In this document: one piece after another, positions 26,323-56,169 of the stretch
Numbering within the stretch: the first letter of the stretch is position 1
How the letters are laid out: each line of letters opens with the position of its first letter
DNA from: Thermoplasmata archaeon
GTDB taxonomy: Archaea > Thermoplasmatota > Thermoplasmata > RBG-16-68-12 > SOIM01
Length of the DNA: 64,000 bases
Direction of reading: 5' to 3'
Assembly: GCA_023140195.1 (NCBI GenBank)
Contig: JAGLME010000015.1
Span: 186,001-250,000, forward strand
Made by a program: the position numbers and the translations under genes
Notes under the pieces: model-generated
Databases searched by the model: none
Seen by the model: the letters and a program-made list of their open reading frames with translations, nothing else
What the model was told of the DNA's origin: nothing

Positions 26323-26766
26323 CTATCTGTGGAATGTGACTGTCAGGCTTTCCACGTGTGAGATGGGTTTCTTATCCTTGCCCCTGCGTGGAAGGGACAC
26401 CAGTCCCCAATCCTCCAGGGCTTTCAGGTCATCATAGACATTCTTGTAGTTCCTCTCCAGTTCATGGGCGAGGTCCTTTATCGATCTTACATCCTGCGTC
26501 CTGATGTGCTCCAGAAGCTCCAGCCTCTTGGGCGTAAGGTCACCAAATATGTTGGATGAGTCGACCGTTATCTTCTCCACGAATTCACAATTCTGCGTGG
26601 CTATTGCTTTCCATATCATGTGGTCGTCCACTGACGACGGATTCCCGCACTTATCTCTCATGACCTTCTGGTGTAGCTTCTCAGCCGTACCATGCTTGCT
26701 CTTGAGGTTATCCAGCTCGTTCTGGATGTCCTTTGGCCTATGTTTCTTCTCTATCTCCACCAACAT
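26323..26766 (-). CDS. wHTH DNA-binding protein, HVO_A0114-like (antitoxin-like partner)
   Basis: 147 aa. The C-terminal half is a winged helix (ELLEHIRTQDVRSIKDLAHELERNYKNVYDDLKALEDWGLVSLPRRG, residues ~84-130) of the type called HVO_A0114 family. The N-terminal half is charged and helical. It lies 9 bp downstream of the small TumE/DUF7718-like gene. In many archaea and bacteria such proteins are paired as toxin and antitoxin; here that role is inferred from the pairing. The direct repeats upstream of the operon promoter could be its binding sites. Confidence 0.68.
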   Translation of the reverse strand: MLVEIEKKHRPKDIQNELDNLKSKHGTAEKLHQKVMRDKCGNPSSVDDHMIWKAIATQNCEFVEKITVDSSNIFGDLTPKRLELLEHIRTQDVRSIKDLAHELERNYKNVYDDLKALEDWGLVSLPRRGKDKKPISHVESLTVTFHR

Positions 26767-26775
26767 GACCTCACC

Positions 26776-27105
26776 TCATAGTTCCGATATATCCATGGTC
26801 ACCAAGTTCCGTCTGAACTCCTTAGCCAGCCTGGCCACCTCCCCAAATGTTCTCTTTGGACACTGCTGCTGGGTGACCAGGGAACCATTCTCGTCGTACT
26901 TGTCATAGTGAGAGCCGATCTCCCAGTTGTCAAACCTAACGACTGGGACCCAGGAGCCCTCGATCATGACCTTATAGGTGTAGCTGAAGAACTCCAGTTT
27001 GTTCTCATTGAATGTCTCTATCGCGTCCACGACCTCATTCCTGTGGATCCAAACACGCTCTTTTGTTATCCTCAACTTATCGTCCGCAAAACGAGGAAGG
27101 GGCAA
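26776..27105 (-). CDS. TumE/DUF7718-like small protein (toxin-like)
   Basis: 109 aa from TTG at 27105. The core YTYKVMIEGSWVPVVRFDNWEIGSHYDKYD resembles the VRYDN-H pattern of the TumE/DUF7718 group, which pairs with HVO_A0114-type wHTH proteins. Start options are TTG 27105 and TTG 27075. A TATA box on the minus strand (CTATAAAAAAG, 27165-27174) predicts transcription from about 27145. This leaves room for 27105, with AAAGG a few nt upstream. Toxicity is not demonstrated; it could also be a non-toxic partner in a regulatory pair. Confidence 0.6.
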   Translation of the reverse strand: MPLPRFADDKLRITKERVWIHRNEVVDAIETFNENKLEFFSYTYKVMIEGSWVPVVRFDNWEIGSHYDKYDENGSLVTQQQCPKRTFGEVARLAKEFRRNLVTMDISEL

Positions 27106-27164: not shown

Positions 27165-27250
27165 TTTTTTATAGCCAGTGTTTCATTTACTAATTGAACC
27201 ATACATAATTGCCCTAGGCACTGGCCAATTCATTTACTAATTGCACCATA
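27165..27250 (-). promoter_or_regulatory. TATA box and paired 22-bp direct repeats upstream of the toxin-antitoxin-like pair
   Basis: The perfect minus-strand TATA (TATAAAAAA, 27165-27173) is followed upstream by two 22-bp repeats at 27182-27203 and 27229-27250. They share CATTTACTAATTG and differ at one base; their start-to-start spacing is 47 bp. GCCAGTG (27174-27180) and CACTGGC (27219-27225) form an inverted pair, one beside each direct repeat. On the plus strand ACCG-N7-CGGT-CTTTTTT (27149-27171) could also act as a terminator. The rest of the spacer to 27346 holds the promoter of the V4R operon (CTTTAATC near 27294). Confidence 0.5.
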
Positions 27251-27346: not shown

Positions 27347-28282
27347 ATGGGAAATCCTAACTATGCAGGAAACAGGGACGGAGAGGGCTCCCAGCCCGGT
27401 CCAGACGACCCTGAAGGGAGCTGCTTCGGTGGCTTTGCCCAGGCTATCTCTGCGCTGGAGAAACTTAACCGCCTGGAATCGGATATAGCCACGATCCTTT
27501 CTACATGCAAGGTTCCTGTGAAGGAGACCAGGAAGTTCCTGAGATGCACCACGCCAGAACAGGTCGCCAACATCTCGCTTTTCCAGTACATGAGGGCGCT
27601 CTTCATGCAGCTGGGCGTGGATATCGAGGTCTCCAGGATCGAACCGTACAATTACCGCTTCGTGGTGAACAACTCCGCCATTTCTGACCTTTACTCAGGC
27701 ACGTCTGGCCGGACTTGTCACCTGATCAGCGAGGCCATTTCCAGGTTCTTCAACCGCGATCTTGACCTGGGTTGCACCGTTGAAGAGATCGAGTGCGTCA
27801 ACGCCGGAGATCAATCGTGCGCGTTCAAGATATCGGTGGACAGAGAAGATTACTGCAGGGTCACCCTGAGCGATGACGAGAAGAACATCCTGAGAGAACT
27901 CGGAAGCTCGGAAAGTGCGCAACGCCTGGAAGTCTACACTGGTATGACTCCCGTAGAGAAGGAGTTCCACTTGTCCTTGTTCAAGAAGCTGGAATTGGTG
28001 GGCGAAGACGGAAGATCGACCGAACTGGGTGTCAAGTGCTCGACGCAGCTCCAGACAGAGGATAATGCCGAAACTCCCTGGAAGGATATGGGAGAATTGT
28101 CGTCCGCGATATCAAGCGCGGTATCATTTGCGGAAGCCAGCCATTTGTCGCTTCCGCCAGATTCAGAAGATACATCTCAAGATGGGAAAGCCCCGGATCG
28201 AAGATCGGTCAGGGCCTACAGGAGCTTTGCCGAATTGCTGGCAAAGCAGGTAGACAAAGAATCCGAATCGGAGGGATTCTGA
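27347..28282 (+). CDS. V4R-domain sensor-like protein
   Basis: 311 aa. Residues ~55-170 form a V4R (4-vinyl reductase-like) small-molecule-binding domain. Its typical end GCTVEEIECVNAGDQSCAFKI contains the conserved CxxxxxECxxxGxxxC-like pattern. Then a ~60-residue segment (SDDEKNILRELGSSESAQRLEV...HLSLFKKLELVGEDG) resembles a winged helix, followed by a Ser/acidic low-complexity tail. Three cysteines precede the V4R domain (CFGG, STCKVP, FLRCTTP). V4R domains bind hydrophobic ligands or metals in signalling proteins. First gene of an eight-gene operon, 1 bp before a KaiC-like ATPase gene, so it is probably the sensor input. Confidence 0.72.
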   Translation: MGNPNYAGNRDGEGSQPGPDDPEGSCFGGFAQAISALEKLNRLESDIATILSTCKVPVKETRKFLRCTTPEQVANISLFQYMRALFMQLGVDIEVSRIEPYNYRFVVNNSAISDLYSGTSGRTCHLISEAISRFFNRDLDLGCTVEEIECVNAGDQSCAFKISVDREDYCRVTLSDDEKNILRELGSSESAQRLEVYTGMTPVEKEFHLSLFKKLELVGEDGRSTELGVKCSTQLQTEDNAETPWKDMGELSSAISSAVSFAEASHLSLPPDSEDTSQDGKAPDRRSVRAYRSFAELLAKQVDKESESEGF

Positions 28283-28283
28283 A

Positions 28284-29156
28284 ATGGGAAGAATAGAAAC
28301 CGGAATATTTGGGCTCGATCAACTGATCGAGGGTGGTCTGAACGAAAAGAGTACCACTGTGATAGTGGGCTCTAGTGGGACTGGAAAAACTACGTTCGGA
28401 GTACAGTTCTTGATGCACGGCATCGAGAATGGGGAGCAAGGGCTGTTCGTTTCTCTCGAAGAGACCCCTGAACAGATAATGAAAGAAGCGGAGGCCATTG
28501 GAATCGATCTGCGCAAGCACTACGAGAAGGACCTGTTCTTCATTCATCTGAAGGGTAAGAACTTCAAGAAGATGGTCGAGGAGCAGCTGCCGCAACTGGT
28601 CAAGGCTAGGAGCGACTACGACATCAGAACTAGGGTGGTAATCGACCCCATAACGCCAGTTCTATGGGCGACCGAGGACAAGCTTGAACAGAGGGAGCTC
28701 ATTGGGAGGCTCTTCTACACACTCAGGGAACTGGGCGTCGTGATCTCAACGGTCGAGGAACACACCAAACCTGGAGAGGCAGTCGGAGAGGACGTTCTTC
28801 TGCCCATATATCTGGCGGACGGAGCGCTGCATCTGGAGTACTACCCCATCGGCGGAGCATTCAACCGGACCCTCAAAGTGATCAAGATGCGTGGGACGCA
28901 CCACGGAGAGGGCGTGTATCCGTACATGTTCGTGCGGGGCATGGGTGTCATCGTTAGGGCATCTGGCACCGACATCGCCGTGGAGCCGGGGCAGGAGTAC
29001 AACGAGATCTTCGACAAGGCGATCCAGACAGCTGAGACCGGACAGGCGCCAAAGCCACTGCTGAGCAGATTGAAGAAGATGAAGGAGTCCTGGGACTACG
29101 ATTACTCACCTGAAGAGGCCCTGCACATAGTCTTCGACTCCTACAAGGTCAAGTAG
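28284..29156 (+). CDS. KaiC/RAD55-like RecA-fold ATPase
   Basis: 290 aa. A single RecA-like domain: TGIFGLDQLIEGGL (residues ~6-19), Walker A GSSGTGKTT (~31-39), FVSLEETPEQIMKEA, and the Walker B-like strand TRVVIDPITPV (~113-123). STVEEH and LKVIKMRGTHH are typical of KaiC-like archaeal proteins. A C-terminal extension of ~50 residues (KPLLSRLKKMKESWDYDYSPEEALHIVF) is not part of the core. Circadian function is not implied; such ATPases act as signalling switches. Start ATG one base after the V4R gene stop. Confidence 0.85.
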   Translation: MGRIETGIFGLDQLIEGGLNEKSTTVIVGSSGTGKTTFGVQFLMHGIENGEQGLFVSLEETPEQIMKEAEAIGIDLRKHYEKDLFFIHLKGKNFKKMVEEQLPQLVKARSDYDIRTRVVIDPITPVLWATEDKLEQRELIGRLFYTLRELGVVISTVEEHTKPGEAVGEDVLLPIYLADGALHLEYYPIGGAFNRTLKVIKMRGTHHGEGVYPYMFVRGMGVIVRASGTDIAVEPGQEYNEIFDKAIQTAETGQAPKPLLSRLKKMKESWDYDYSPEEALHIVFDSYKVK

Positions 29157-29167
29157 GACGTGCTTCG

Positions 29168-29959
29168 ATGGTTGGGAAAACGAAGGATATCGACAAGCGT
29201 ATGGAGGCCGGAACGGCGACCATGCTCAAGCACATGCTGGACATCGAACTCAGGAACGTCAAGGAGAAGGACGGTGTTGACGCGGTGTTGTTCATGGGAG
29301 TCGACGGCAGAATCTTCAGTTCGAACATCCCCTTTGACCTGTCGCCCCCGCAGTACAGGCTCCTGAACCTGGTCAAGGCGCACATCCCCCACATATGTGG
29401 GCAGCTCAGCTCCGAGAACCTGAAGATCTCTGTCCAATATTACGGTGATGGGACCATAGTCATCGCCGGCGTCGGTGACAGCGCCTTCATGGTGCTCCTT
29501 TTTGCCAAAGGCATCAAGTTCAACGACATGGAGAAGATACTCGACCACGCAGAGGACGCCGGAACGATCTTGAACCATCTGTTCGAATCCAGACCCATCA
29601 CGCCCGGGACGTTGAAAGGCTACAACAAGAAGGTGCAGGCCGAACTGACAGCGCTGTCCAGACAGCTGTTCGTTGAACGCTTCGAGGAGACCAGGGAGTT
29701 CCAGAAGAACATGGAGATACTCAAGTTCGTTAAGCAGAAGATCCAGGACACCCTGGGCATCGGAGTGGTGGATGAGATAGTTACAATCTCGTTCAACGAG
29801 TTGGGTACATCTGCAGCCTATATGAACGACGATCTGTGGAAGAAGTTCGTTGAGAGTGTGGTTGAACGTATTGGAGAGATGGGCGGAGAGGTGACTGCCG
29901 AGAAGTTCGCATCTACCTCCGTCCCGGAGATCGAGAAGAAATTGAAGTCATTCGTGTGA
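29168..29959 (+). CDS. Roadblock/LC7-like protein with C-terminal helical domain
   Basis: 263 aa. Residues ~15-135 resemble a roadblock/LC7 fold: DAVLFMGVDGRIFSSNIP, LVKAHIPHICGQLSSENLKIS, YYGDGTIVIAGVGDSAFMVLLFAKG. The C-terminal ~120 residues are helical and charged (ERFEETREFQKNMEILKFVKQKIQDTLG) with no recognised domain. Roadblock proteins often act as GAP-like or scaffolding partners of P-loop switches, so pairing with the KaiC-like protein 11 bp upstream is plausible. Its stop overlaps the next start (GTGA). Confidence 0.65.
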   Translation: MVGKTKDIDKRMEAGTATMLKHMLDIELRNVKEKDGVDAVLFMGVDGRIFSSNIPFDLSPPQYRLLNLVKAHIPHICGQLSSENLKISVQYYGDGTIVIAGVGDSAFMVLLFAKGIKFNDMEKILDHAEDAGTILNHLFESRPITPGTLKGYNKKVQAELTALSRQLFVERFEETREFQKNMEILKFVKQKIQDTLGIGVVDEIVTISFNELGTSAAYMNDDLWKKFVESVVERIGEMGGEVTAEKFASTSVPEIEKKLKSFV

Positions 29960-31617
29960 GGCCTTTGGTCATGATTGAGGACAAGCGGGTTGTGGACGCT
30001 CGGAAGGATGTAGCCGATGCTCAATGCCAGTATTGTGATAGGACCTTCAAATCTCCAAGGGGTCGAAGTATCCATGAGCGTGCCTGCAAAGAGAAGGAGC
30101 GCGCCGATGGAGCGACACGATCTGGTACAGAGAGCTTGGCCGAACCTCCCCCATCCGCACGAGCACCAGCATCTATGGAAGCAGCCGAGATTTCTGAGGA
30201 ATTTGCCGTTCCTCCCGCTGAGGATGAAGGTGGCGGTCTCAAGGTGGATCCTAGGATGCCCGATGCAAGGTATGCCTCCGATCCCTCCCTCGAAATCAAG
30301 CAGCTGATTGCTCAGATGGAGGAGGAGAGGAAACGATGGGAAGACGAGAGAAAAAGGTTCATTCAACAGACCGAAGGCCTCCTGGTGGATGAGGAACCTC
30401 ACACTGCCCAAGGCGTCCCTGAACCCAAGATCAAGAAGGGTGCAGGAGCGGAAGAGATGTTGATGTCAGAGATGAGAATCGCCGCAGAGCTGGACGACCT
30501 CAAGAGCGAACTTCAGGGGAAGGCGAACGTCGAGACCATGAAGGACCTCGTGGAATCCGGGCAGGACGCCACAAGACAGTTGGACTATCTGGACGAGAAC
30601 GTGGAAACCCTTACCACTGTTCTTGGTGAGTTCAGCGCTCGCACCATGGACGACCTTTCATCTTTGAGCAAGAAGCTAGGAGTGAAGGCCGACGAGGGCG
30701 CACTGGAAGCTTTGAGAGAGCTGATCAAGCGCCTCGACGGGAAGCTGGAGGATGTCATTGAAGTGGTGGGATACGAGGAATCATTGAACCTGAGCAAGAT
30801 ACCTCCGAGGATTCTCGAACTCGTTTACCAGACCACCCTTGACGATGTCACCGCAGCCCTGGTTCAGACCTTGGGAGAGGTGGAGACCGAAAGACTGGTC
30901 AGGCAGGTCATGGAAGAGGTCAGGATCAGGACCAGCGGCAGTGAGATGTTCCGTTACCAGTACTCGCGCTTCAAGATCAAGGGTGTTGCGTCGTCGATCG
31001 AGAAGGGACTGATATCCGCCAAGCAACTGCAGATGACCTACGATGAAATCCTCAAGAGGCTGAAGGAACAGGTCCCACATCACCAAACCAAGAACTTCCG
31101 CGCCATGATAAAGGTCAAGAGCCAGGAGTTCGCGATCGAGAAGACCACCCAAGTTGCGAGGGAACTTGTGTCCATGCAGGCCGAGGTCCAGGCCCTTAGG
31201 AAGTCCATTTCAGAGGTGGCGAACAGCATGTCGCACGAGATCGCAGAGATCGCATCGAAGTTATCCGAGATCAATGGAAAGGTGAAGGAGTTCGAACCAG
31301 CCGTTGATGGGAAGAAACTTGACGGTGCTGGAAGCACATCCGAACAACCAAGCCCAGAAATTCCCCACGAAACGGTGGAGGAAGCGGACGACGGTACCTC
31401 CACAGAGGAAACCGAGAAGCAGGTCCTTGCTCTGATCCCAGCCAAGGGCACCACCCTCACCAAACTGAAGAAATCTGATCTACCGGACGGGGACCTGCAA
31501 TCAACTCTCGATTCTCTGGTCCAGAAGGGGACGATCGAGAAGAAGAAGAGAGGCAAGGGGTTCGTGTATCTTCCCAGGGAGGATGAGGAAGAAGGAGGTG
31601 GTTCTGATAATGAATGA
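29956..31617 (+). CDS. C2H2-like zinc finger, coiled-coil and C-terminal wHTH protein
   Basis: About 553 aa. N-terminal CQYCDRTFKSPRGRSIHERAC (about residues 24-44) matches a single C2H2/C2HC zinc finger. A low-complexity acidic linker leads to long helical regions (EEERKRWEDERKRFIQQTEG, and ~190-440 with heptad-like LDDLKSELQGK, LSSLSKKLGVKADEGALEALRELIKRLDGKLEDV). A final ~55 residues look like a winged helix (VLALIPAKGTTLTKLKKSDLPDGDLQSTLDSLVQKGTIEKKKRGKGFVYL). It could be a DNA-binding scaffold of the operon's system. Start GTG 29956, or ATG 29971 in the same frame. Confidence 0.6.
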   Translation: MRPLVMIEDKRVVDARKDVADAQCQYCDRTFKSPRGRSIHERACKEKERADGATRSGTESLAEPPPSARAPASMEAAEISEEFAVPPAEDEGGGLKVDPRMPDARYASDPSLEIKQLIAQMEEERKRWEDERKRFIQQTEGLLVDEEPHTAQGVPEPKIKKGAGAEEMLMSEMRIAAELDDLKSELQGKANVETMKDLVESGQDATRQLDYLDENVETLTTVLGEFSARTMDDLSSLSKKLGVKADEGALEALRELIKRLDGKLEDVIEVVGYEESLNLSKIPPRILELVYQTTLDDVTAALVQTLGEVETERLVRQVMEEVRIRTSGSEMFRYQYSRFKIKGVASSIEKGLISAKQLQMTYDEILKRLKEQVPHHQTKNFRAMIKVKSQEFAIEKTTQVARELVSMQAEVQALRKSISEVANSMSHEIAEIASKLSEINGKVKEFEPAVDGKKLDGAGSTSEQPSPEIPHETVEEADDGTSTEETEKQVLALIPAKGTTLTKLKKSDLPDGDLQSTLDSLVQKGTIEKKKRGKGFVYLPREDEEEGGGSDNE

Positions 31618-31840
31618 CAGCGAGAAGAAGGACGTCATGGACCTTCGTGACAAGGAGTTGCTTGTCTACGGGGTTCTGACACAGGAAGGGCTTACGATGA
31701 GCGCCATAAGGAATGAGGTCGGGGAGAAGGCCGAATACACCGAGATACTGGACGCGCTCAAATCACTACTTGACGGTGAACTCGTGTCGGTCACCACACA
31801 TGGTGCACACACGGTTTACAGAAGGACAAAAAAAGACTGA
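31610..31840 (+). CDS. Small winged-helix protein
   Basis: 76 aa from the ATG at 31610, overlapping the previous stop. The whole protein looks like a winged helix: KELLVYGVLTQEGLTMSAIRNEVGEKAEYTEILDALKSLLDGELVSVTTHGAHTVYRR. GGAGGTGG lies ~10 nt upstream of the start, within the preceding gene. It resembles the C-terminal wHTH of the preceding protein in arrangement. Possible transcription factor of the operon or structural adaptor. Confidence 0.6.
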   Translation: MNDSEKKDVMDLRDKELLVYGVLTQEGLTMSAIRNEVGEKAEYTEILDALKSLLDGELVSVTTHGAHTVYRRTKKD

Positions 31841-31853
31841 GAGGTGAAAAGAA

Positions 31854-32474
31854 ATGCTTGACGTAGCATTGGTGTCGCTCATCACAGATATGAGCGAGAA
31901 AGCAGGTGTGGAAGGTACAATCGAGTACTGGATGCGCGTCGGCGAGAACATGGCCAAGAGGATCGGAAAGGAAGCCTACGTAGGTTGGCCTTCCTTCAAC
32001 GTCGCCCTGAGAGAGGGTAGGACCGGGTTCTCCATCGAGGGAGATATCCAGGCGTTGACCGATCTTGCCATAACCGATGTGGATGGAGACGTGGTCGGAT
32101 ATCTTTACGCGCTCAAAGAGTGCTGCTTCGTTCCGACGATCGAAAGAACGAGGCTCAGTGTTGGAGCACTTCCCAGAGCTGACAAGGCTGTGGCGGAGGA
32201 GTACAACAACAGCGTTCACGATATCGCGGTCTGCAATTTCTGCGTCATCCACGAGAAGTTCAGGCAGGAGGCCTCCAAGAACATTACCATCGCGGGCCAA
32301 GTCTTGGATTGTTTGATGCTGGCAACCAGAGGGTTCAGCGGGGAGACCAAGATCTCTGAGGATAACCTCAAGAAAATCGCCATGAACCCGGAGTACGTGA
32401 GGAGCCTTCTTAGGAACTACGATTGTGTGTACGCCGTCCTGATGAAGGGCGCAAGACTGGACAAGGAGGCATAG
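31854..32474 (+). CDS. Unrecognised protein, paralogue of the next gene
   Basis: 206 aa. I do not recognise the family. Mostly helical by eye. It aligns along its length with the protein at 32477. Shared elements are an N-terminal helix pair (IEYWMRVGENMAKRIGKEAYVGWPSFNVALREG), a Cys-containing middle (LKECCFVP), and VAEEYNNSVHDIAVCNFCVIHEKFRQEASKNITIAG; both end in LLRNYDCVYAVL or a similar segment. The conserved EYYNS...C-I-H...ITIAG pattern with Cys and His may bind a metal or heme, by inference. GAGGTGAAAAG lies just upstream of the start. Confidence 0.55.
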   Translation: MLDVALVSLITDMSEKAGVEGTIEYWMRVGENMAKRIGKEAYVGWPSFNVALREGRTGFSIEGDIQALTDLAITDVDGDVVGYLYALKECCFVPTIERTRLSVGALPRADKAVAEEYNNSVHDIAVCNFCVIHEKFRQEASKNITIAGQVLDCLMLATRGFSGETKISEDNLKKIAMNPEYVRSLLRNYDCVYAVLMKGARLDKEA

Positions 32475-32476
32475 AG

Positions 32477-33091
32477 ATGAGCGTGACTAAAGACCACCTG
32501 AAAGAGAGCAATCCCTTCGTTGATGTGGCAACACATCTCTTCCTGGAGGACATTGCCGACAAACAGGGCGCAGCCGGTCTCAACAACTATCTCATGAGCC
32601 TGGCCACGTCGCTTGCCAAGAGCATGCCCGAGGAGGAGTACAAGACATGGGACGAGTTCCTCGTGTCGCTCAAGAACGGACAATCGATTCTGTCAGCGTT
32701 CGAGACGATCGAGACTCCCACCAAGAACTGCGTGGTGAACCCGGTCTGTCCCTTCGCTCGAGGCTGGACCGAGTACAGCAAGCGGATCGGCAGCTTCTCG
32801 CAGATCCACAACGAGGTGGCCGAGTACTATAATTCCACAATAAAACCGGCAGCCATCAATTCGATGTGCATCATTCACCAGACCTTCCGAATCGCAGCCG
32901 CAGATCGTATCACGATTGCAGGGAAGCGGCTGAGGGTCGCACAGATTGCTGCGATCTGGACCGACGGTGACAAGAGAATGGTGCCGGACGAATGGAAGGA
33001 CATAGTACTTCAGAAGGCGGGCATCAGCAACACGAATCTCAATATGATTTTGAGGAACAACGCCTGCGTTTGGGTCATCTACATCGATTAG
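32477..33091 (+). CDS. Unrecognised protein, paralogue of the previous gene
   Basis: 204 aa from the ATG at 32477, 2 nt after the previous stop, with AAGGAGG within the preceding gene's end. Same architecture as its neighbour: LNNYLMSLATSLAKSMPEEEYKTWDEFLVSLKNG, then NCVVNPVCPFARGWTEYSK (extra Cys pair), VAEYYNSTIKPAAINSMCIIHQTFRIAAADRITIAG, and ILRNNACVWVIYI at the end. The tandem copies have diverged strongly, suggesting an obligate heterodimer or two functional states. Family and function unknown. Confidence 0.55.
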   Translation: MSVTKDHLKESNPFVDVATHLFLEDIADKQGAAGLNNYLMSLATSLAKSMPEEEYKTWDEFLVSLKNGQSILSAFETIETPTKNCVVNPVCPFARGWTEYSKRIGSFSQIHNEVAEYYNSTIKPAAINSMCIIHQTFRIAAADRITIAGKRLRVAQIAAIWTDGDKRMVPDEWKDIVLQKAGISNTNLNMILRNNACVWVIYID

Positions 33092-33134
33092 GACCGGACG
33101 ATCGCCCATTTGCCTAGTCGGGGCAGTGATGTAA

Positions 33135-33680
33135 GTGAAGGAACTTTGGAAAGACCAGAACTATTCATATCTCAAGCTGGAGCATCCCGAAGAGGTTGAC
33201 AACTACATCATCAGGGGGGTCGAAAACGAAGAAGGAGGGTTCGATTTCTTCAAAGGTCTCGGCATCATCGGATATCCTTCCACCTTCAAGGCTTGGCTCC
33301 GGAAGTTCCCCCGTCCCATATTCCTGGTCGCGTCCAAGAAGAACGAGATCGTCTCGTGGATCTTCGTGGAGGAGTGGGAAGAGCCCGGAAACGACGGCTT
33401 CCCCGTCTACGTTCTCAGAGCGATAGAGACCCTCCCGGGGATGAGGAGGAAGAGGATAGGGTTCAGGTTGTTCCTCCTGTTGCTAAAGGAGACCGCTGGA
33501 TATCTTATCACCAAACCTCTCACGCCTGATGCCATGCGGTTCTTCAAAAGACTTGGTTTCCTGGAGGAGAACGAGATCACCCGGCCCCCCATAGATCTGT
33601 CCCACAGGTCCAACTACCTTGTATTCCCGGTGCATTCCAGAAAAGAGATGCTGGAGACCTTCTCCGATTATCTCGTCTGA
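33135..33680 (+). CDS. GNAT-like acyltransferase
   Basis: 181 aa from GTG at 33135. The GNAT core is suggested by FLVASKKNEIVSWIFVEEW (strands 2-3), VYVLRAIETLPGMRRKRIGFRLFLLLLKE (strand 4 and the acetyl-CoA pyrophosphate loop, R-R-K-R-I-G in place of RxxGxG/A) and PDAMRFFKRLGF (typical GNAT helix 4 pattern FYxxxGF). The C-terminus has no special features. Last gene of the V4R-KaiC operon, convergent (3-bp gap) with the AglB-linked surface protein. Target unknown. Confidence 0.68.
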   Translation: MKELWKDQNYSYLKLEHPEEVDNYIIRGVENEEGGFDFFKGLGIIGYPSTFKAWLRKFPRPIFLVASKKNEIVSWIFVEEWEEPGNDGFPVYVLRAIETLPGMRRKRIGFRLFLLLLKETAGYLITKPLTPDAMRFFKRLGFLEENEITRPPIDLSHRSNYLVFPVHSRKEMLETFSDYLV

Positions 33681-33683
33681 GCC

Positions 33684-34469
33684 CTATCTTCTCCTTTTCC
33701 GGCTCAATGTTGATGGCAGAAGCAGTAGGATAGCGATCACGAATATGACCAAGAGGACAGTGACAAGCAGTCCAGGTCCTTCGGAGGGCCCGTAGAAGTC
33801 CTTTGTGTAGAACGTCTCTCCCCTCGTCTCGTCTATTATCCCATCGCCGTTGAGGTCTATCTCGATACCCAGTTCGTGTTTTCCTGGCGATATGCTCTTC
33901 GTAATCCAGCTGAAAGTGGCAACGCCCTCGCTGAGGGGGCCTATCTCTTCAATAGGCTCACCGCTACCGATCAGCTCACCATCCACCTTGAAATTGACCA
34001 GTACGTTCTTCAGCGTGGAGTTGGTCGGGTTCTTCACTGTCGCCCTCAGGCTGATCGGGTCCACCACGGCTATCTCGTATGTGTCGCTGACAAGGGAGAT
34101 GTTCGCTCCGAGCAGGGAGGCAGCTTCTACGTTCAGTTTCATGCCCTGGGGGACGGAGGGCGCTGTGACATCGATATGGAAGATGTTGCTCTCATTGGTC
34201 TCGTTGAACGCATTACCCAGAGTGGGGCTAGCGTCGGTGATGTTCTTACCGGTAAGATGGGCCCCGACTCTCCATTTCCCTCCTTCCTCAGCGGGACCGC
34301 CCACGACCGTTACCGTGTAAACAGCATTGTCGCTGATCCCCAGGGCGTCGGGTCCGACGATGAACACCCTCACCTCGGTCTCTTCCTGGGCCGTCACGGG
34401 CTGCCAAACCAGTTGCAAGGGGAGAAGCATCGACAAAGCCAGTATCAGTATCAATAACCTCTTCATCAT
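33684..34469 (-). CDS. Membrane-anchored surface protein, CARDB-like domains
   Basis: 261 aa from the ATG at 34469. A signal peptide (KRLLILILALSMLLPLQLVWQPVTA) and a C-terminal transmembrane helix (GLLVTVLLVIFVIAILLLLPS) with a basic stop (RKRRR) mark a type I surface protein. Between them lie two beta-sandwich stretches. The second (SLRATVKNPTNSTLKNVLVNFKVDGELIGSGEPIEEIGPLSEG...SPGKHELGIEID) looks like a CARDB/NEW3 adhesion-type domain. Several Asn-X-Ser/Thr sites are present. It overlaps the aglB stop (ATGA) with a GGAGGAG Shine-Dalgarno, so it is translated with AglB and could be a partner or a substrate. Confidence 0.7.
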   Translation of the reverse strand: MMKRLLILILALSMLLPLQLVWQPVTAQEETEVRVFIVGPDALGISDNAVYTVTVVGGPAEEGGKWRVGAHLTGKNITDASPTLGNAFNETNESNIFHIDVTAPSVPQGMKLNVEAASLLGANISLVSDTYEIAVVDPISLRATVKNPTNSTLKNVLVNFKVDGELIGSGEPIEEIGPLSEGVATFSWITKSISPGKHELGIEIDLNGDGIIDETRGETFYTKDFYGPSEGPGLLVTVLLVIFVIAILLLLPSTLSRKRRR

Positions 34470-37400
34470 CTCCTCCTCCTTCCTCTTATGAATCTGTATG
34501 CGATCATCAGCCCCAGTATCGCCCCAAGGGCGAACACGGCGTAGGTCCACGTATCGGTCTCCTGCGTGAGGGAGACTCCCCTTCCAGACATGATGATGTC
34601 CTCGACCTCAAGGCTGAAGCTTGGCAGGAGTGCCGGGACCGTCAGAACCTTGTCCGTCGTCCTGTCGTCCTCCTCATAGCTGAGTATGGTCGCATATGTG
34701 GACGCCACCGGTCCTTTCACGGTGAACCTAAGTACGATCTTCTGGGTGGTGTTCCCGTCAACCTCCACACCCTCCAGCCTGCTTGAATAAGTCAAATTGA
34801 TGGGATTCTGCAGTTCGGCCGTCCATCCAATCAGTTCCAGGTTCTCGCTGTTGAGTATTTCCAGGACGAACTTCTCCTTGCTGTTCCCTTCGTTGGCAAG
34901 CTCCAGTTCATAATTCACGTGAGTTCCATCATACGCTGCTGGCAGTGTGGTCAGTATGAGGTCCATTCCCCTGATCTTCTCTATATCCACGAACACCTGG
35001 ACGTTGTCCAGCGTTGAGGAACTGTTCTCAGAGCGCGCCGTGAGCGTCAGCGTGCCGTGGTCCACGGATGCGTTCGCCGGCGTGCTGATGGTAACGTCAA
35101 TTGTCGTGCTGCTACCCGCGTCGCCGTAGTCCAGGACCACCTTTTCGGGTGTGAATTTGAACTCCCAGTCCTCGGATGGGCCGAAACCCTGCATGGTGAA
35201 CGTATCCTCCACATTCCCCTCATTGGTGATGGTGACCGTGTAAGTCACAGATCCTCCCTGGGGTATCTCTTCCCTGTTGTCCAGGTCCCATTCGATCTTG
35301 ACTTTCCTCTCCATGTTCTTGGTCAGTTCCAGATTTACCGCCGCGACATCGTCTATCAAAATGCTCTCGGTGGCGCTGTAGGTCACATCTGCCCCCTTCT
35401 CAACGACGATCGTGCTGGCCTGGACCAGATAATCTCCTGGAGGGAGATAGAGCTCATAATGGCCTTGGTCATCCGTCAACAATTCCATGGTTCCGTCGCC
35501 AAGGAAGTTCACCTCCGTGACCTGCCTTTCGCCGTCCTTGAACGTGATGACACCGGACACCCTGAATCCCTGAACAAGCACTATTTCGTATTGCATCGGA
35601 GTGTCATAGGCCACCGAGATCTCGCCCAGATGGGTGTAGTGTCCTGCCTGTTTGTGAATGTAGACCGTGTACTGACCCGGCATCATGTCGACCGTGTAGT
35701 TGCCGTCCGGCTGTGAGAAGGCCGAGATGTTCATTGCGGATGGGTTCACGGCGATGAACTGTACCTGCGCGACCGCGCCCACTCCGTCTATCGTCACCGT
35801 CCCCGAGACCGTCGAGTTCTCGAATGTCTTTGTGATCTGGAGGTCATATATCTCCTGGGCCTCGCCTTGATCGATGTGCAGTGCGGACATGTGTGTGTAC
35901 TTCAGATACCTCACAACATCGTCCTCTTCCTCGGTCGTGCTGTGGTCAACGCTAACGGTATAGTCGCCCCAGAGCAGATATCCCTCATACCTGCCACTGT
36001 CCTCGGTGGAGATGGTCACTGTGCCCCCGACCGTTCTTTCGAACCTGATGTCCAGAGCTTCTCTCACGATCGTTCCCTTGTACCTCAATAGGCCGGTGAT
36101 CTTGGTGGATTCCTCGAAGTTCAGGTCAAGAGTCGTGCCGCCTGCCACGTGGAAACCCTCAATGAGGGCGTACTGGTCCTCGTCATGTTCCTTCAGAGAA
36201 GAAGCGGTGTAATCTCCCACCGCCAAGAAGAGCTCGAAGTCGTCGTCGACAACCTCTATCGTTGTGACATCCGGGCCGTCGAAATCTATGCTGGCGTTCG
36301 TTGGAGCGCCCTGAAGGTTGACCGTCCCGGTAACGAGCCCTCTCATGACGACATCCAGGTCGTAGTCCAGATCATCCTGGCCGATGGTCAGGAGAATCTC
36401 TTCCGTTTCCTGCAGCTGATACCTCAGGTCACCCGATACCGAGATGTTCTGGTCGATCACGATGCTGTACTCCCCTGGTCTGAGGCTTACCGAATACGCC
36501 CCATTGGAGCTTCTGGTCCCGGTCGAGATGGAACCCGAGCCGAGAGCCTGGAACTCAACGTCTAGGTTGTCTCCGATCAGTGGAACACCATCCAGCGACA
36601 GGAGTCCCGAAACGCTGATGTTCCTCGGGGTCAAGGCATGGACCGCATCACTTTCCAGGTCCTCGAACGAGGACAACGGCCTCGTGACCGTATCGAATCC
36701 GATTGATTCCACAGCCAAAGAATAGTCAGTATCAGGCAGGAGCCATGCTTCGTACTCCCCCTGCTCGAATGTGAAGAACGCCAGCTCATCGCCGGCATCG
36801 TTGGAGAATCGCAGAATCGCGTCCACCAATCCCTCCTCGGATTGTCTGTCATCAGATCCATCCATATCGTAGTAGACAAAGCCAGACAGTTTGACGTCAC
36901 CCTCCAGGACAATGTCATGGACCACATCCTCGGACAGGATGATCTGCGAGGAGTAGACCCCCTCTCGGAGTCCGAACGATATGACCTGGTAATTGTCAGG
37001 GGGCAGTATGGCGGTGTACACTGCAAGGTTGTTCGACTGTGACTTGAACCTTCCCCTGTCGCTCTCCAGGAAGACCGTCGTCTCGTTGTTTTTCTCACCC
37101 TGGTAGGATACCGTCCCGCTGATCTTCACGGCCGGCTCCATCGGAATGTCCAGGGTCATGTTCTTGGCACCCTTTACCAGGATCGACCCCAGATAGACAT
37201 ATCTACTTCCCCCGGTGCTGTACACGCTGTAAACGTCGTGCAATCCTCCTTGGAGCATCACTGAATACCTGCCCGTCTCGTCCGATGTTATGAACCTATC
37301 CCTCGGAACCGTGGATCTGGACCTGAACTCCAGATACGTGTAAGGAGCGGTCTTCCCACCGGCGAGCGTTCTTCCGGAAACCGTTCCGGCTGGTACCAGG

Positions 37401-40400
37401 CTGATGTCCGCGGTGATGTTCTCCGACATCTTCAGCAATACCCTGACAGGAAGACTGGATTCCTCTCCGGTGGATATCTCGATGGTCAGCTCTCCAGGCA
37501 GAAGGTCCTGGTAAGTGAAGTTCCCTTCAGAGTCCGTTCGGGTCAAAACGGTGGTCTTGTTGGACTCGTCATACAGACTTGCGGTGGCATTGCCAGCAGG
37601 TTCGCCATCATGTTTGCGGACAGTGCCAGTGATGGAGGTCGCTGTTACGTTCATGTTCTTCGTGAGCACCTTCTCTCTCTCCACGGTGACCATCTCAAGT
37701 CCCAGCAACCTCCCTTCAGTTTCAAGGGTGACCTCGTAATCCCCGGGGAATGCTCCCTCGAGCTTGTAAGTGCCATTCTCGTCAGTCATCATCTCCAAGG
37801 TCTCGTTGACGGCGGTGTGGTCGAATGTCAGGAGCGCGTTGGGGAAGACCAGCTCATCCTCGTCGTATTCGTTGTTGTAGTTCCTGTCCAGATAGGCAGT
37901 TCCCGCCAATGAACCCCCTTCGACATCGATGTTCTTGGTGATCAGGTAATCCAGCTTGCCGTCGCCGTCGGAATCGAGCGGTCTTCTCATCGCCTGGTCC
38001 TCGGTGACGTTGAATGTGACCACGTTAAGTTCCGTCGATCCCAGGTTGGTGAGATCCTGGAGGGGACCGACCGAGACCTGCAGTGATATCCCTCCGAACG
38101 GTGCCAATACGCTGTATTTGCCCTCGGAATCTGTCTTGGTCAGATAGTGCACGACCTGGAGTTCATCCCTGACCGTGATCCAGGCACCTGATAATGGCGA
38201 TACACCGTCGACCGTCACTGTTCCATTGACGTATGCCCCGTCGTAGTACTGCATGATGACAACGCCGTTGAACATGGTGGACCTCGGGCTTGCGTCCACG
38301 ACCCCCTCCATCTCACCGCTGTTGATTTTCTGCGAGTAATCTATGGCGGTCTCGAAATTGATGGCGGTCCAGGCATCAGTGTGGTTCGCCAACTCTTCCT
38401 GAGGATAGGGATTGAAGTATGCGGTCTTGTAAGTGACCCTGTAATGGGAGAGGTTCCATCCCTGGATGGGTGTCTGTTCTTCCAGTTCACCGCTGACCCC
38501 TGGGATGCCCATGTTCTGATCCTCGCCGGCATCCACTGGGCTGTAACCAACGAACGTCCTGTAGAGCATGGAATCGTAGAACATGTCCTTGTACTCTATT
38601 CGAACGTCCGTGACCTGCGCCCCTATCGGGACCTCGTGCGGCCAGAAGACCCCTTGATCTGTCTCCGCCTTGATCTCAAAGAAGTCAATGGGCATGTTCT
38701 CCTCCATCCGATGGTCGGAGAGCTTGGCAGGTGCGTAGAAGATACCTGTCTGGGACCCAGAGAACGGGAACAGTCTCGAATCCACCGCGAAGTACTTTAT
38801 CTCCTTCCCGGTGACCTCGCGTATATCATGATAGAAGTCGGCCATCTGGTCGACGTTCAGTTTGCTGGTGAACAGTTGCCTCATGATGATGTACATGGCG
38901 TTCTGAATGTCCATGTTGGCGTCATATGGGTCATAGATATCCGGGTTGTCGATGATCGTTCTGATGTAGCTGCCAGGACCCTTCAGATAGTCCTCCACCT
39001 CGCTGTAGTTGAAACCGTGCCTTGTTATGACGTCCCTGACCGGATCGCTCAGTCTTCCCAGGGCCACGTTCTCGACGTAATCTCCCTCTATGAGTCTGGC
39101 GACCAGAAGTGAGACAGCGTCGTTCTCACCCCGGGCCATTAGCCAGCTCCCGGCCAGTTGATAACCGTTCAGGAAGTTGTCTGCCACCGTCGGGTGTTCT
39201 CCAGCGTTGACCGCTTCGAACCCGTAGTCCCACCAACTGAGGAATGCGGGTCTGTCGCTGACCGGCATTATATCGGCATCCTGTTGAGCAAGCCAGTTCC
39301 ATGCCGCGGGCCAGTATCTGGTCTCCAGGGGCAGTGAATAACCGAACGCACCAAGATAGAAGTTCCTTCCTTCTTCGATCCCTTCCGGCCTCAGGGCCTC
39401 GGGAAGCATGTCAACGATCGCCTGGTCGTACTTGCGCTTCTCTTCGTACGGCATTCCAGCGTCCAGGCCATACCAGACGTTTGGCAGGAGTATCATGCCG
39501 GTGATGAACAAGGCGCCAACGATGTGCCTTATCTTGATGCTCTTCCTGATGGCGTACAGCTTATTGGACCGCCTCTCATCGTACGATTTCCTGATGCCTT
39601 TGAAATCCAACTTATCGACAACTATTATCAATGCCCAACCGGCGGTCATGGCGATTGCCGGCGCCGCGTTGAATATGAACCTGGCTGCCGACATGGACAT
39701 GAAGATGGAAGCGCCGCTCCAAATGACCAAGAACAGGTAGAAGGGCTCCAGCCTCTTCGGGATCTGGATGAAGGAATACGCCAGCCCTGCCAAAGACAGG
39801 TAGAACGAGACAGCACCAAAAGCCAGAGCTAATTGGCTGAAGTTGGGGGCCTGGGCCTCTGCGATGGTCTCGTACGTCTTGGTTCTCAGGAAATAACCCG
39901 CACCGCTCACGAAGCTCTGGGCGATCGCGGGGTAGACTATGGCAAGTATCACGAAGGCCACTCCGAAGGTGATGAAGACCGTCGGGATGACTAAGGCCCA
40001 AGGATAATCTCGGGTTAAGGTGAATATGAAGCCAATGGCAATGGCCACCAAGAACAGGATCACGGGAGCGTCGAACCAGGTGGCAATGAAGTTGTAGGTG
40101 TAGTACCACGGGAAGGACACGAGCAAGGCCACCCCCACCGTGATGGCAAAACAGATCATGATCCCCATCGGGTCCCTGCTCCTCAATCTGGTGACCAGCA
40201 ACTGGAATCCGAAGTAGACCAATATGATGACTATGATGTATGCGAAACCCTTCCACGCCAGGGCTATCGCCGCTATCGAGAATGCGGCCATCACCGAGTA
40301 CAGAATGGGTCTTGTGTTGTTGGTGAAGAAGTCGGCCAGACCGCTCTTGACGTCCCCCAACTTACGCCATCTTTTGACCCATTTCTTATCTTCCAGCAGG

Positions 40401-40969
40401 TGCAGCGCCCTCAAGAAGAAGAAGAACGCGGCAACGGCGAAGAACAGCGCGTACGCGTCGTGGTCTGCGTTTGAGAACGGACTACGTTGTATGTGTGCTG
40501 GCATAATCGCCAGGAAGAAAGCGGCAACCAGTCCAGCTCTCCTTCCGAAAGCCTCCTTGGTCAGGAAGTACAGTGGGAAGATGGTCAGGCTTCCCCAGAC
40601 CGCCGTGGAGAACAGGAACGAATACCATACCGATACCTCCACGTTCGGGAAGAGCGGGGAGAAGACTATTCCGACGACCGCCACCGACCAGTCGTACAAA
40701 GGCGGCCTGCCGGATCGCAGTCCTATCGGATATCCAAGTAACGGATCGTATATCAGATGCTCTCCGGTGTTCACGACATAATCGATGATCCTCTTGTGGT
40801 AGTACGAGTCAGAACCGCCGGAGACCAGGAATGCCGGGTCCGTTGCTGGTCCGAAACCGAACCATGTCCTGAGAAACATCGCAAGGACAAAGATCCCAAA
40901 AAGAAGGCTAAGAGTAATCCAGTTCTCACTGAACCATGCTTTTGTCTCATCTAATGTACGTGATGCCAT
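34466..40969 (-). CDS. aglB: Giant oligosaccharyltransferase AglB/STT3 with ~1300-residue extracellular extension
   Basis: About 2167 aa. Residues ~15-500 hold about 13 transmembrane helices with GGSDSYYH (first acidic motif, ~54-61) and NADHDAY (second, ~170-176). TIAEAQ is the probable external loop 5 Glu, and SWWDYG at ~580 is the WWDxG catalytic-site signature. This part transfers lipid-linked glycan to Asn-X-Ser/Thr. After ~900 come roughly a dozen carboxypeptidase-regulatory-like beta-sandwich repeats (pattern ISGTVxxxGxPxxxAxVxL...GxYxxxLxPGxYxV). Two NEW3-like domains, a single transmembrane helix and RRRR follow. Usual archaeal AglB is 700-1000 aa. Start ATG 40969 or GTG 40978; a minus-strand TATA GATAAATA is at 41013-41020. 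Confidence 0.88.
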   Translation of the reverse strand: MASRTLDETKAWFSENWITLSLLFGIFVLAMFLRTWFGFGPATDPAFLVSGGSDSYYHKRIIDYVVNTGEHLIYDPLLGYPIGLRSGRPPLYDWSVAVVGIVFSPLFPNVEVSVWYSFLFSTAVWGSLTIFPLYFLTKEAFGRRAGLVAAFFLAIMPAHIQRSPFSNADHDAYALFFAVAAFFFFLRALHLLEDKKWVKRWRKLGDVKSGLADFFTNNTRPILYSVMAAFSIAAIALAWKGFAYIIVIILVYFGFQLLVTRLRSRDPMGIMICFAITVGVALLVSFPWYYTYNFIATWFDAPVILFLVAIAIGFIFTLTRDYPWALVIPTVFITFGVAFVILAIVYPAIAQSFVSGAGYFLRTKTYETIAEAQAPNFSQLALAFGAVSFYLSLAGLAYSFIQIPKRLEPFYLFLVIWSGASIFMSMSAARFIFNAAPAIAMTAGWALIIVVDKLDFKGIRKSYDERRSNKLYAIRKSIKIRHIVGALFITGMILLPNVWYGLDAGMPYEEKRKYDQAIVDMLPEALRPEGIEEGRNFYLGAFGYSLPLETRYWPAAWNWLAQQDADIMPVSDRPAFLSWWDYGFEAVNAGEHPTVADNFLNGYQLAGSWLMARGENDAVSLLVARLIEGDYVENVALGRLSDPVRDVITRHGFNYSEVEDYLKGPGSYIRTIIDNPDIYDPYDANMDIQNAMYIIMRQLFTSKLNVDQMADFYHDIREVTGKEIKYFAVDSRLFPFSGSQTGIFYAPAKLSDHRMEENMPIDFFEIKAETDQGVFWPHEVPIGAQVTDVRIEYKDMFYDSMLYRTFVGYSPVDAGEDQNMGIPGVSGELEEQTPIQGWNLSHYRVTYKTAYFNPYPQEELANHTDAWTAINFETAIDYSQKINSGEMEGVVDASPRSTMFNGVVIMQYYDGAYVNGTVTVDGVSPLSGAWITVRDELQVVHYLTKTDSEGKYSVLAPFGGISLQVSVGPLQDLTNLGSTELNVVTFNVTEDQAMRRPLDSDGDGKLDYLITKNIDVEGGSLAGTAYLDRNYNNEYDEDELVFPNALLTFDHTAVNETLEMMTDENGTYKLEGAFPGDYEVTLETEGRLLGLEMVTVEREKVLTKNMNVTATSITGTVRKHDGEPAGNATASLYDESNKTTVLTRTDSEGNFTYQDLLPGELTIEISTGEESSLPVRVLLKMSENITADISLVPAGTVSGRTLAGGKTAPYTYLEFRSRSTVPRDRFITSDETGRYSVMLQGGLHDVYSVYSTGGSRYVYLGSILVKGAKNMTLDIPMEPAVKISGTVSYQGEKNNETTVFLESDRGRFKSQSNNLAVYTAILPPDNYQVISFGLREGVYSSQIILSEDVVHDIVLEGDVKLSGFVYYDMDGSDDRQSEEGLVDAILRFSNDAGDELAFFTFEQGEYEAWLLPDTDYSLAVESIGFDTVTRPLSSFEDLESDAVHALTPRNISVSGLLSLDGVPLIGDNLDVEFQALGSGSISTGTRSSNGAYSVSLRPGEYSIVIDQNISVSGDLRYQLQETEEILLTIGQDDLDYDLDVVMRGLVTGTVNLQGAPTNASIDFDGPDVTTIEVVDDDFELFLAVGDYTASSLKEHDEDQYALIEGFHVAGGTTLDLNFEESTKITGLLRYKGTIVREALDIRFERTVGGTVTISTEDSGRYEGYLLWGDYTVSVDHSTTEEEDDVVRYLKYTHMSALHIDQGEAQEIYDLQITKTFENSTVSGTVTIDGVGAVAQVQFIAVNPSAMNISAFSQPDGNYTVDMMPGQYTVYIHKQAGHYTHLGEISVAYDTPMQYEIVLVQGFRVSGVITFKDGERQVTEVNFLGDGTMELLTDDQGHYELYLPPGDYLVQASTIVVEKGADVTYSATESILIDDVAAVNLELTKNMERKVKIEWDLDNREEIPQGGSVTYTVTITNEGNVEDTFTMQGFGPSEDWEFKFTPEKVVLDYGDAGSSTTIDVTISTPANASVDHGTLTLTARSENSSSTLDNVQVFVDIEKIRGMDLILTTLPAAYDGTHVNYELELANEGNSKEKFVLEILNSENLELIGWTAELQNPINLTYSSRLEGVEVDGNTTQKIVLRFTVKGPVASTYATILSYEEDDRTTDKVLTVPALLPSFSLEVEDIIMSGRGVSLTQETDTWTYAVFALGAILGLMIAYRFIRGRRRR

Positions 40970-41012
40970 AGTCTGCACCGTGGAGAGCGAAAGGGAACAT
41001 ATACAGACCGTC

Positions 41013-55404: not shown

Positions 55405-56169
55405 TTAACCACCAGCCACACTTCCACCTTTCAGCAGCGGTACCAAGAGCACGCCGCAATGGGTCAGGTCCAGCACGTACTTAGCTCTGGAATGCATCGT
55501 TCCCCTCATCTTGACCACCTGTAGCGTTCTCAGAAGGTCGCCTCTCCTCTCCAGGTTCCCCATGAATATGATGCCGTCAGCGATCGCCTCTTCGACCCCG
55601 AAAAGGGAATATCGCTCCTCAGCCGGAGATATCTCCGAAACCAGCAGGCTCGTGCAGCCCTTGGATGACAACACGGCCCCAAGCCTCAATATGAACTCCC
55701 TGATCTTCTCCTGGGTACGAAGTCGGTAGCAGACCGATGTAATGGAATCTATCACCAATCTGGAGGTCTGGAGCTCGGTGACTATGTCGCTTATCGCGTC
55801 CACCAGAACGTCCACCTCCTCCATATCGAACTCGAGCTGTTCCAGGCCCAGCTGGGAATAGATGACTGGCATGTCCAGAAAGACGAGCTTCCCTTCCCTG
55901 ATCAACTTCTCATCGAAGAAATCGTACGGGATGATGTTGTTCATGAGCTTCTCGCAGCTCTCGGTGACCGAGATGAAAAGGCAGTTCTCACCCTCCAAAG
56001 CTCCGTGGACAAGGAACTCCATCGAAAGCGTGGTCTTGCCCGTTCCGACGCTTCCTGTGACGAGTACGGTGTTCCCACGGGGTATGCCGCCATCGACTAT
56101 GCTGTCCAAGGCGTCTATGCCCGTTACGCATCGGTCCCGCTTTCTCTCTCCGGTGATGTCATCCGGCAT
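55405..56169 (-). CDS. KaiC/RAD55-like RecA-fold ATPase
   Basis: 254 aa. TGIDALDSIVDGGIPRGNTVLVTGSVGTGKTTLSMEFLVHGALEGENCLFISVTES carries a canonical Walker A (GSVGTGKTT, residues ~39-47); SRLVIDSITSVCYRLR is Walker B; ADGIIFMGNLERRGDLLRTLQVVKMRGTMHS is the KaiC-family end. It is the only intact ATPase of the three-gene operon. A TATA-like CATATAAG lies ~30 bp upstream on the minus strand. Role unknown; pilin genes lie downstream, and archaellum/pilus systems use a KaiC-like protein (FlaH). Confidence 0.85.
   Translation of the reverse strand: MPDDITGERKRDRCVTGIDALDSIVDGGIPRGNTVLVTGSVGTGKTTLSMEFLVHGALEGENCLFISVTESCEKLMNNIIPYDFFDEKLIREGKLVFLDMPVIYSQLGLEQLEFDMEEVDVLVDAISDIVTELQTSRLVIDSITSVCYRLRTQEKIREFILRLGAVLSSKGCTSLLVSEISPAEERYSLFGVEEAIADGIIFMGNLERRGDLLRTLQVVKMRGTMHSRAKYVLDLTHCGVLLVPLLKGGSVAGG

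Follow-up and report, generated by a model that had tools for sequence, protein, structure and literature searches.

A widespread archaeal operon with a proposed signalling switch of the KaiC type

The operon and its proteins

We analysed a 64-kb window (the whole stretch of DNA considered here, positions 186001-250000 of its contig) from an archaeal genome of 2.98 Mb that is 95% complete. Near relatives have been deposited as Methanomassiliicoccales/Euryarchaeota MAGs, and the wider group is the Thermoplasmata. The window carries a row of eight forward-strand genes, together with two reverse-strand genes of an extended module and a candidate operator:

26323-26766, reverse strand: HTH regulator, extended module (PF25212, E = 3.3e-20)
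26776-27105, reverse strand: DUF7718 protein, extended module (PF24839, E = 2.5e-8)
27182-27243, forward strand: candidate operator, two copies of TTCATTTACTAATTG as a direct repeat in the divergent promoter region
27347-28282, forward strand: V4R sensor protein of 311 aa, in which a wHTH-like segment and recurring SFAE-type motifs accompany the V4R domain
28284-29156, forward strand: KaiC-like RecA-fold ATPase (290 aa, single domain)
29168-29959, forward strand: Roadblock/LC7 domain protein with C-terminal helical bundle (263 aa)
29956-31617, forward strand: scaffold protein with zinc finger, coiled coils, central helical domain and C-terminal wHTH
31610-31840, forward strand: stand-alone wHTH protein, from its ATG (the longest ORF begins at 31583)
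31854-32474, forward strand: paralogue A (pA; 206 aa)
32477-33091, forward strand: paralogue B (pB; 204 aa), directly 3' of pA
33135-33680, forward strand: GNAT acetyltransferase, the last gene (181 aa; PF00583, E = 1.1e-5)

A sequence-only reading had proposed eight same-strand genes with tight junctions, and all were found in place, the longest overlap being 8 bp and the widest gap 43 bp. The V4R and KaiC genes are 1 bp apart and the KaiC and roadblock genes 11 bp; the roadblock and scaffold genes share a 4-bp GTGA overlap, and the scaffold and wHTH genes overlap by 8 bp. Gaps of 13, 2 and 43 bp follow between wHTH and pA, pA and pB, and pB and GNAT. The two exact copies in the candidate operator lie at 27182-27196 and 27229-27243, 47 bp apart, and a sister genus preserves this spacing, with the two copies altered to TTTACCAA. 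The gene at 34466-40978 on the reverse strand, beside a CARDB-type gene, encodes a 2170-aa oligosaccharyltransferase of the AglB type that contains a very long repetitive stretch; AglB adjoins the operon in many lineages.

The family assignments proposed from sequence for the V4R, KaiC, roadblock and GNAT proteins held, the last through the PF00583 match listed above. The window's V4R protein scores 24.5 bits against PF02830 (E = 2.9e-5), under the curated cut-off of 31, and 24 of 24 orthologues match this family, the best at 8e-10. Cys124, Cys150 and Cys158 are invariant, with spacings of 26 and 8, and an invariant glutamate stands three residues ahead of the second cysteine. The sequence is thus that of a predicted V4R domain with the cysteine spacing of a zinc site, a spacing identical to that in the phenol sensor DmpR, whose zinc ligands are Cys151, Cys177 and Cys185 (PMC7264223). 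Short SFAE-type motifs occur at the N-terminus, in the middle and at the C-terminus of the protein, the last being near-invariant (SFAEL); these are possibly docking motifs.

The ATPase matches PF06745 (E = 2.7e-46) as well as KaiC in the PDB. It has the RecA-fold domain, Walker A motif and catalytic glutamates of KaiC-like ATPases: Walker A (GSSGTGKTT) and LEE are intact and conserved, as is the C-terminal tail WDYDYSPEEAL, and mean column identity is 82% within the order. A second KaiC-like gene in the window (55471-56133, reverse strand) encodes a protein 35% identical to it.

Searches of Pfam and NCBIfam found no family for pA, pB, the roadblock protein or the scaffold, and PDB sequence profile searches with the first three gave no significant match. 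The roadblock assignment comes instead from an AF2 model (pLDDT 84.6), in which residues ~17-139 have the predicted element order alpha-beta-beta-alpha-beta-beta-beta-alpha of a Roadblock/LC7 fold. Foldseek returned 47 PDB matches at E<=1e-3 (best 1.8e-5); the matches listed are all either roadblock proteins (MglB, MglC, Asgard roadblocks) or Rag/Ragulator chains, and the best, to Asgard roadblocks and MglB, have a probability of 1.00.

For the scaffold and the small gene after it, a zinc finger, coiled coils and a wHTH had been proposed. The scaffold alignment bears out the coiled coil and shows a wHTH, but the zinc finger, at the N-terminus, occurs in some lineages only. The best conserved part is the central helical domain (residues ~265-400), which is retained into Methanosarcinaceae (E ~1e-28).

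Gene order and a four-gene core

We find that the arrangement is conserved far beyond chance, because its order is kept both in sister genera and in deep Thermoplasmata lineages. Among 80 loci outside the order, deep lineages included, at least 19, all from Thermoplasmata, carry the unbroken run V4R-KaiC-roadblock-scaffold-pA-pB-GNAT, and the case that would have spoken against a unit, genes that are neighbours in no relative, did not occur.

The unit is a real conserved operon, but its membership is not fixed at eight. Across 20 loci of the order, compared by tBLASTn for each protein, most of those from families f1, f3, f4 and f5 share a constant KaiC-roadblock-pA-pB block, flanked by purD-translin upstream and CARDB-AglB downstream. 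The V4R, scaffold and GNAT genes are present in f1 and f5 and lost in f3 and f4, and the separate wHTH gene is confined to f1. As f3 and f4 retain only KaiC, roadblock, pA and pB, these four genes are the invariant core. Other lineages have a wHTH at the scaffold C-terminus, and the stand-alone wHTH clusters with the scaffold gene of locus L094; its probable origin is the wHTH that ends the scaffold protein.

The eight-gene composition was also incomplete, as a CheF-like/wHTH protein and an HDAC-family enzyme often belong to the unit too. In the 80-locus set, a CheF-like/wHTH gene precedes the unit in 18 loci and a shorter CheF-like gene in 7 more, and an HDAC-family gene likewise stands ahead of it in 16. 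The window has no CheF-like gene before V4R. HDAC was considered and rejected as an operon member there: the source genome does have two HDAC genes at other places on this contig, of which the closer lies ~51 kb upstream. Outside f3 and f4, most Thermoplasmata loci have GNAT as the final operon gene. The HTH and DUF7718 genes, inverted in the window (26323-27105), lie upstream of V4R and co-directional with it in other lineages.

We detected pA in 62 of 250 Thermoplasmata genomes. In 29 of 31 relatives, the KaiC orthologue and full-length pA are either present together (21) or missing together (8); in the remaining two, pA is represented by fragments at the ends of contigs. A record titled Leptolyngbyaceae cyanobacterium (L057) carries pA-pB-GNAT with a pA 76% identical to that of the window, and is probably a contaminating contig.

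Paralogues and chemotaxis clusters in methanogens

The paralogy of pA and pB, proposed from sequence, is upheld by their profile alignment (hhalign 99.8%, E = 4.9e-29), and the pair did not turn out to belong to a well-described unrelated enzyme family. Mean column identity of pA is 84% within the order, and orthologues are at least 50% identical out to Methanosarcinaceae. The pA-pB order is retained in the loci examined. In the tree the two paralogues are fully separated, so the duplication is older than the split of Thermoplasmata and Methanosarcinaceae; the Methanosarcinaceae rows form a group in both halves of the tree, with weak support (80/72) in the case of pA.

The AF2 model of pA (pLDDT 69.8, N-terminal part poor) has as its best 21 PDB matches TRAPP subunits, PoxR, MopR, DmpR and H-NOX, all weak (E>=7e-3, TM ~0.26). 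Homology between V4R and Bet3/TRAPP is established (PMC2253512), and a similarity of V4R to H-NOX-type and ATC-hydrolase domains has been reported (PMC5847659), so these matches represent one superfamily. Comparison of V4R with pA, with pB and with both together by hhalign was negative, and a viral structure library gave no consistent match to the pA model. We put the chance that pA and pB are V4R-like at slightly better than even.

In Methanosarcinaceae the module occurs as two halves at separate loci. The first reads archaellins-HDAC-HDAC-GNAT-CheF-like-V4R-Sm-like-KaiC-roadblock-scaffold-GNAT, the archaellins being identified by PF01917 (7e-30). The second reads CheA-CheC-FtsA/PilM-like-CheR-CheC-CheC-CheD-x-CheC-x-pA-pB, with pA-pB as the last genes of the che operon. 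In Methanosalsum both halves form one run, KaiC-roadblock-scaffold-x-CheY-CheB-CheR-CheC-CheD-CheC-x-pA-pB, in which the names CheY and CheB come from the sequences themselves and CheC from Pfam; CheR and CheD cluster with genes of a Methanolobus locus (L098) that were checked by Pfam. The che operon at that locus also includes a 706-aa FtsA/PilM-like actin-family protein (L098:1963-4083), and at another Methanolobus locus a tandem pair of histone-deacetylase-family genes adjoins archaellin genes (L124:2124-5281).

Of 247 Halobacteriota genomes, 15 have a full-length roadblock orthologue (E<1e-86), and precisely these 15 also have full-length pA, counts that are not independent since the carriers look like one related group; in most of the 15 the two genes are at separate loci. 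Core proteins thus co-occur even when unlinked, which, with the fixed order and the che/archaellum placement, supports a single signalling machine. The sequence-only reading was right about the unit and partly right about its roles, but it missed these chemotaxis and deacetylase links. In methanogens that have archaellum genes its relatives sit in chemotaxis and archaellum clusters, so we conclude that the operon is probably a regulatory module not described before, and not a set of genes placed together by chance.

Proposed mechanism and relation to known systems

We consider it likely, with moderate confidence, that the operon encodes a cytosolic signalling module in which the KaiC-like ATPase is the hub, the V4R sensor and the roadblock partner set its state, and pA/pB read it out. 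The V4R protein, which spaces its zinc cysteines as phenol sensors do, would bind a small hydrophobic or redox-active ligand and so shift the state of the KaiC ATPase. Roadblock proteins set or read the nucleotide state of other P-loop switches, and here the roadblock protein, whose gene adjoins that of KaiC, may do the same as a direct KaiC partner. The coiled-coil scaffold would hold the complex together, with winged helices able to act on DNA, and the readout is probably a V4R/TRAPP-like heterodimer of pA and pB. The GNAT and linked deacetylase-family enzymes probably set the acetylation of a component or target; their occurrence in both Thermoplasmata and Methanosarcinaceae may point to reversible acetylation, but small molecules, too, can be substrates of HDAC-family enzymes.

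In Methanosarcinaceae, where Che proteins are linked to the module, the readout would feed the CheC/CheD/CheA-archaellum pathway, and the neighbourhoods point to motility as the output in methanogens. Such linkage is absent from the source genome, in which we found neither CheW nor archaellin. As CheW occurs in only 3 of the 62 pA-bearing Thermoplasmata genomes and archaellin is clear in 6, motility cannot be the general output. Thermoplasmata probably have another, possibly surface filaments or glycoproteins; the position of AglB hints at the latter, as a lead only. Tentatively, we also suggest a more specific reading, in which pA/pB are a new archaeal chemosensory family, a TRAPP-like V4R heterodimer that with KaiC-roadblock and GNAT/HDAC acetylation forms a second CheC/CheD input, with a different output in the Che-less Thermoplasmata.

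The same scarcity of CheW and archaellin makes it unlikely that every carrier uses the operon as a dedicated motility regulator, with pA/pB and KaiC-roadblock as undescribed archaeal chemotaxis adaptors and the Thermoplasmata copies still controlling a motility or pilus motor. Such a role would suit the Che and archaellin neighbourhoods of Methanosarcinaceae, and a CheF-like protein belongs to the operon in both groups, but its similarity to CheF is weak: against CheF-arch (PF04283) the best E is 0.003, 2 of 16 members match, and the upstream gene of relatives does not reach the cut-off (17.7 versus 25 bits). A PF00482 pilus platform gene is found in 59 of the 62 pA carriers, but it is present in 206 of all 250 genomes and was discarded as a motility marker because it is not diagnostic. 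An operon mainly for transcription regulation, with the V4R-wHTH, scaffold wHTH and HTH proteins controlling surface or metabolic genes and KaiC as a gene-regulatory hub, would account for the presence of wHTH domains in V4R, in the scaffold and in additional genes, and for the conserved direct repeat in the promoter. We regard it as improbable, as the minimal f3/f4 unit lacks the wHTH parts and the che-operon position of pA-pB is left unexplained. The KaiABC circadian clock uses a double KaiC (CI+CII) with KaiA and KaiB, and KaiC family membership would speak for a clock or timer here. We consider this very improbable and reject it on the single 290-aa KaiC domain, which lacks the second, phosphorylated CII domain, and no KaiA or KaiB homologue was recognised among the operon genes.

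The role of KaiC-like ATPases in archaea is largely open, and a fixed four-gene core with its partners is now defined. Relatives of the proposed signalling module in named methanogens (Methanolobus, Methanosalsum), within motility and chemotaxis clusters, make its function testable by deletion and biochemistry. If the proposal is true, a RecA-fold ATPase works with a roadblock protein; to our knowledge, roadblock pairing is otherwise known with Ras-like GTPases.

Signalling hubs built on KaiC-like ATPases are already known from archaea (Makarova, Galperin and Koonin 2017, as cited in PMC5847659) and, as described in that citation, resemble our operon in that sensory and output domains are encoded together with an ATPase of the KaiC family. 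In the literature searched we found no description of the roadblock/V4R/coiled-coil-wHTH/pA/pB/GNAT/HDAC/CheF-like composition, though one may exist elsewhere. The operon resembles archaeal chemotaxis systems (CheA, CheC, CheD, CheR, CheB, CheF) in that pA-pB close Methanosarcinaceae che operons, but it exists without CheW in the source genome and most Thermoplasmata carriers. With Roadblock/LC7 proteins such as MglB and the Asgard roadblocks, the operon protein shares the fold of its N-terminal domain; it differs in its additional C-terminal helical bundle and in adjoining a P-loop gene for a RecA-fold KaiC rather than a Ras-like GTPase. Finally, in DmpR a V4R domain likewise controls an ATPase (PMC7264223), but unlike in DmpR, PoxR and MopR, the V4R and ATPase are separate proteins here, and the ATPase is KaiC-like rather than AAA+.
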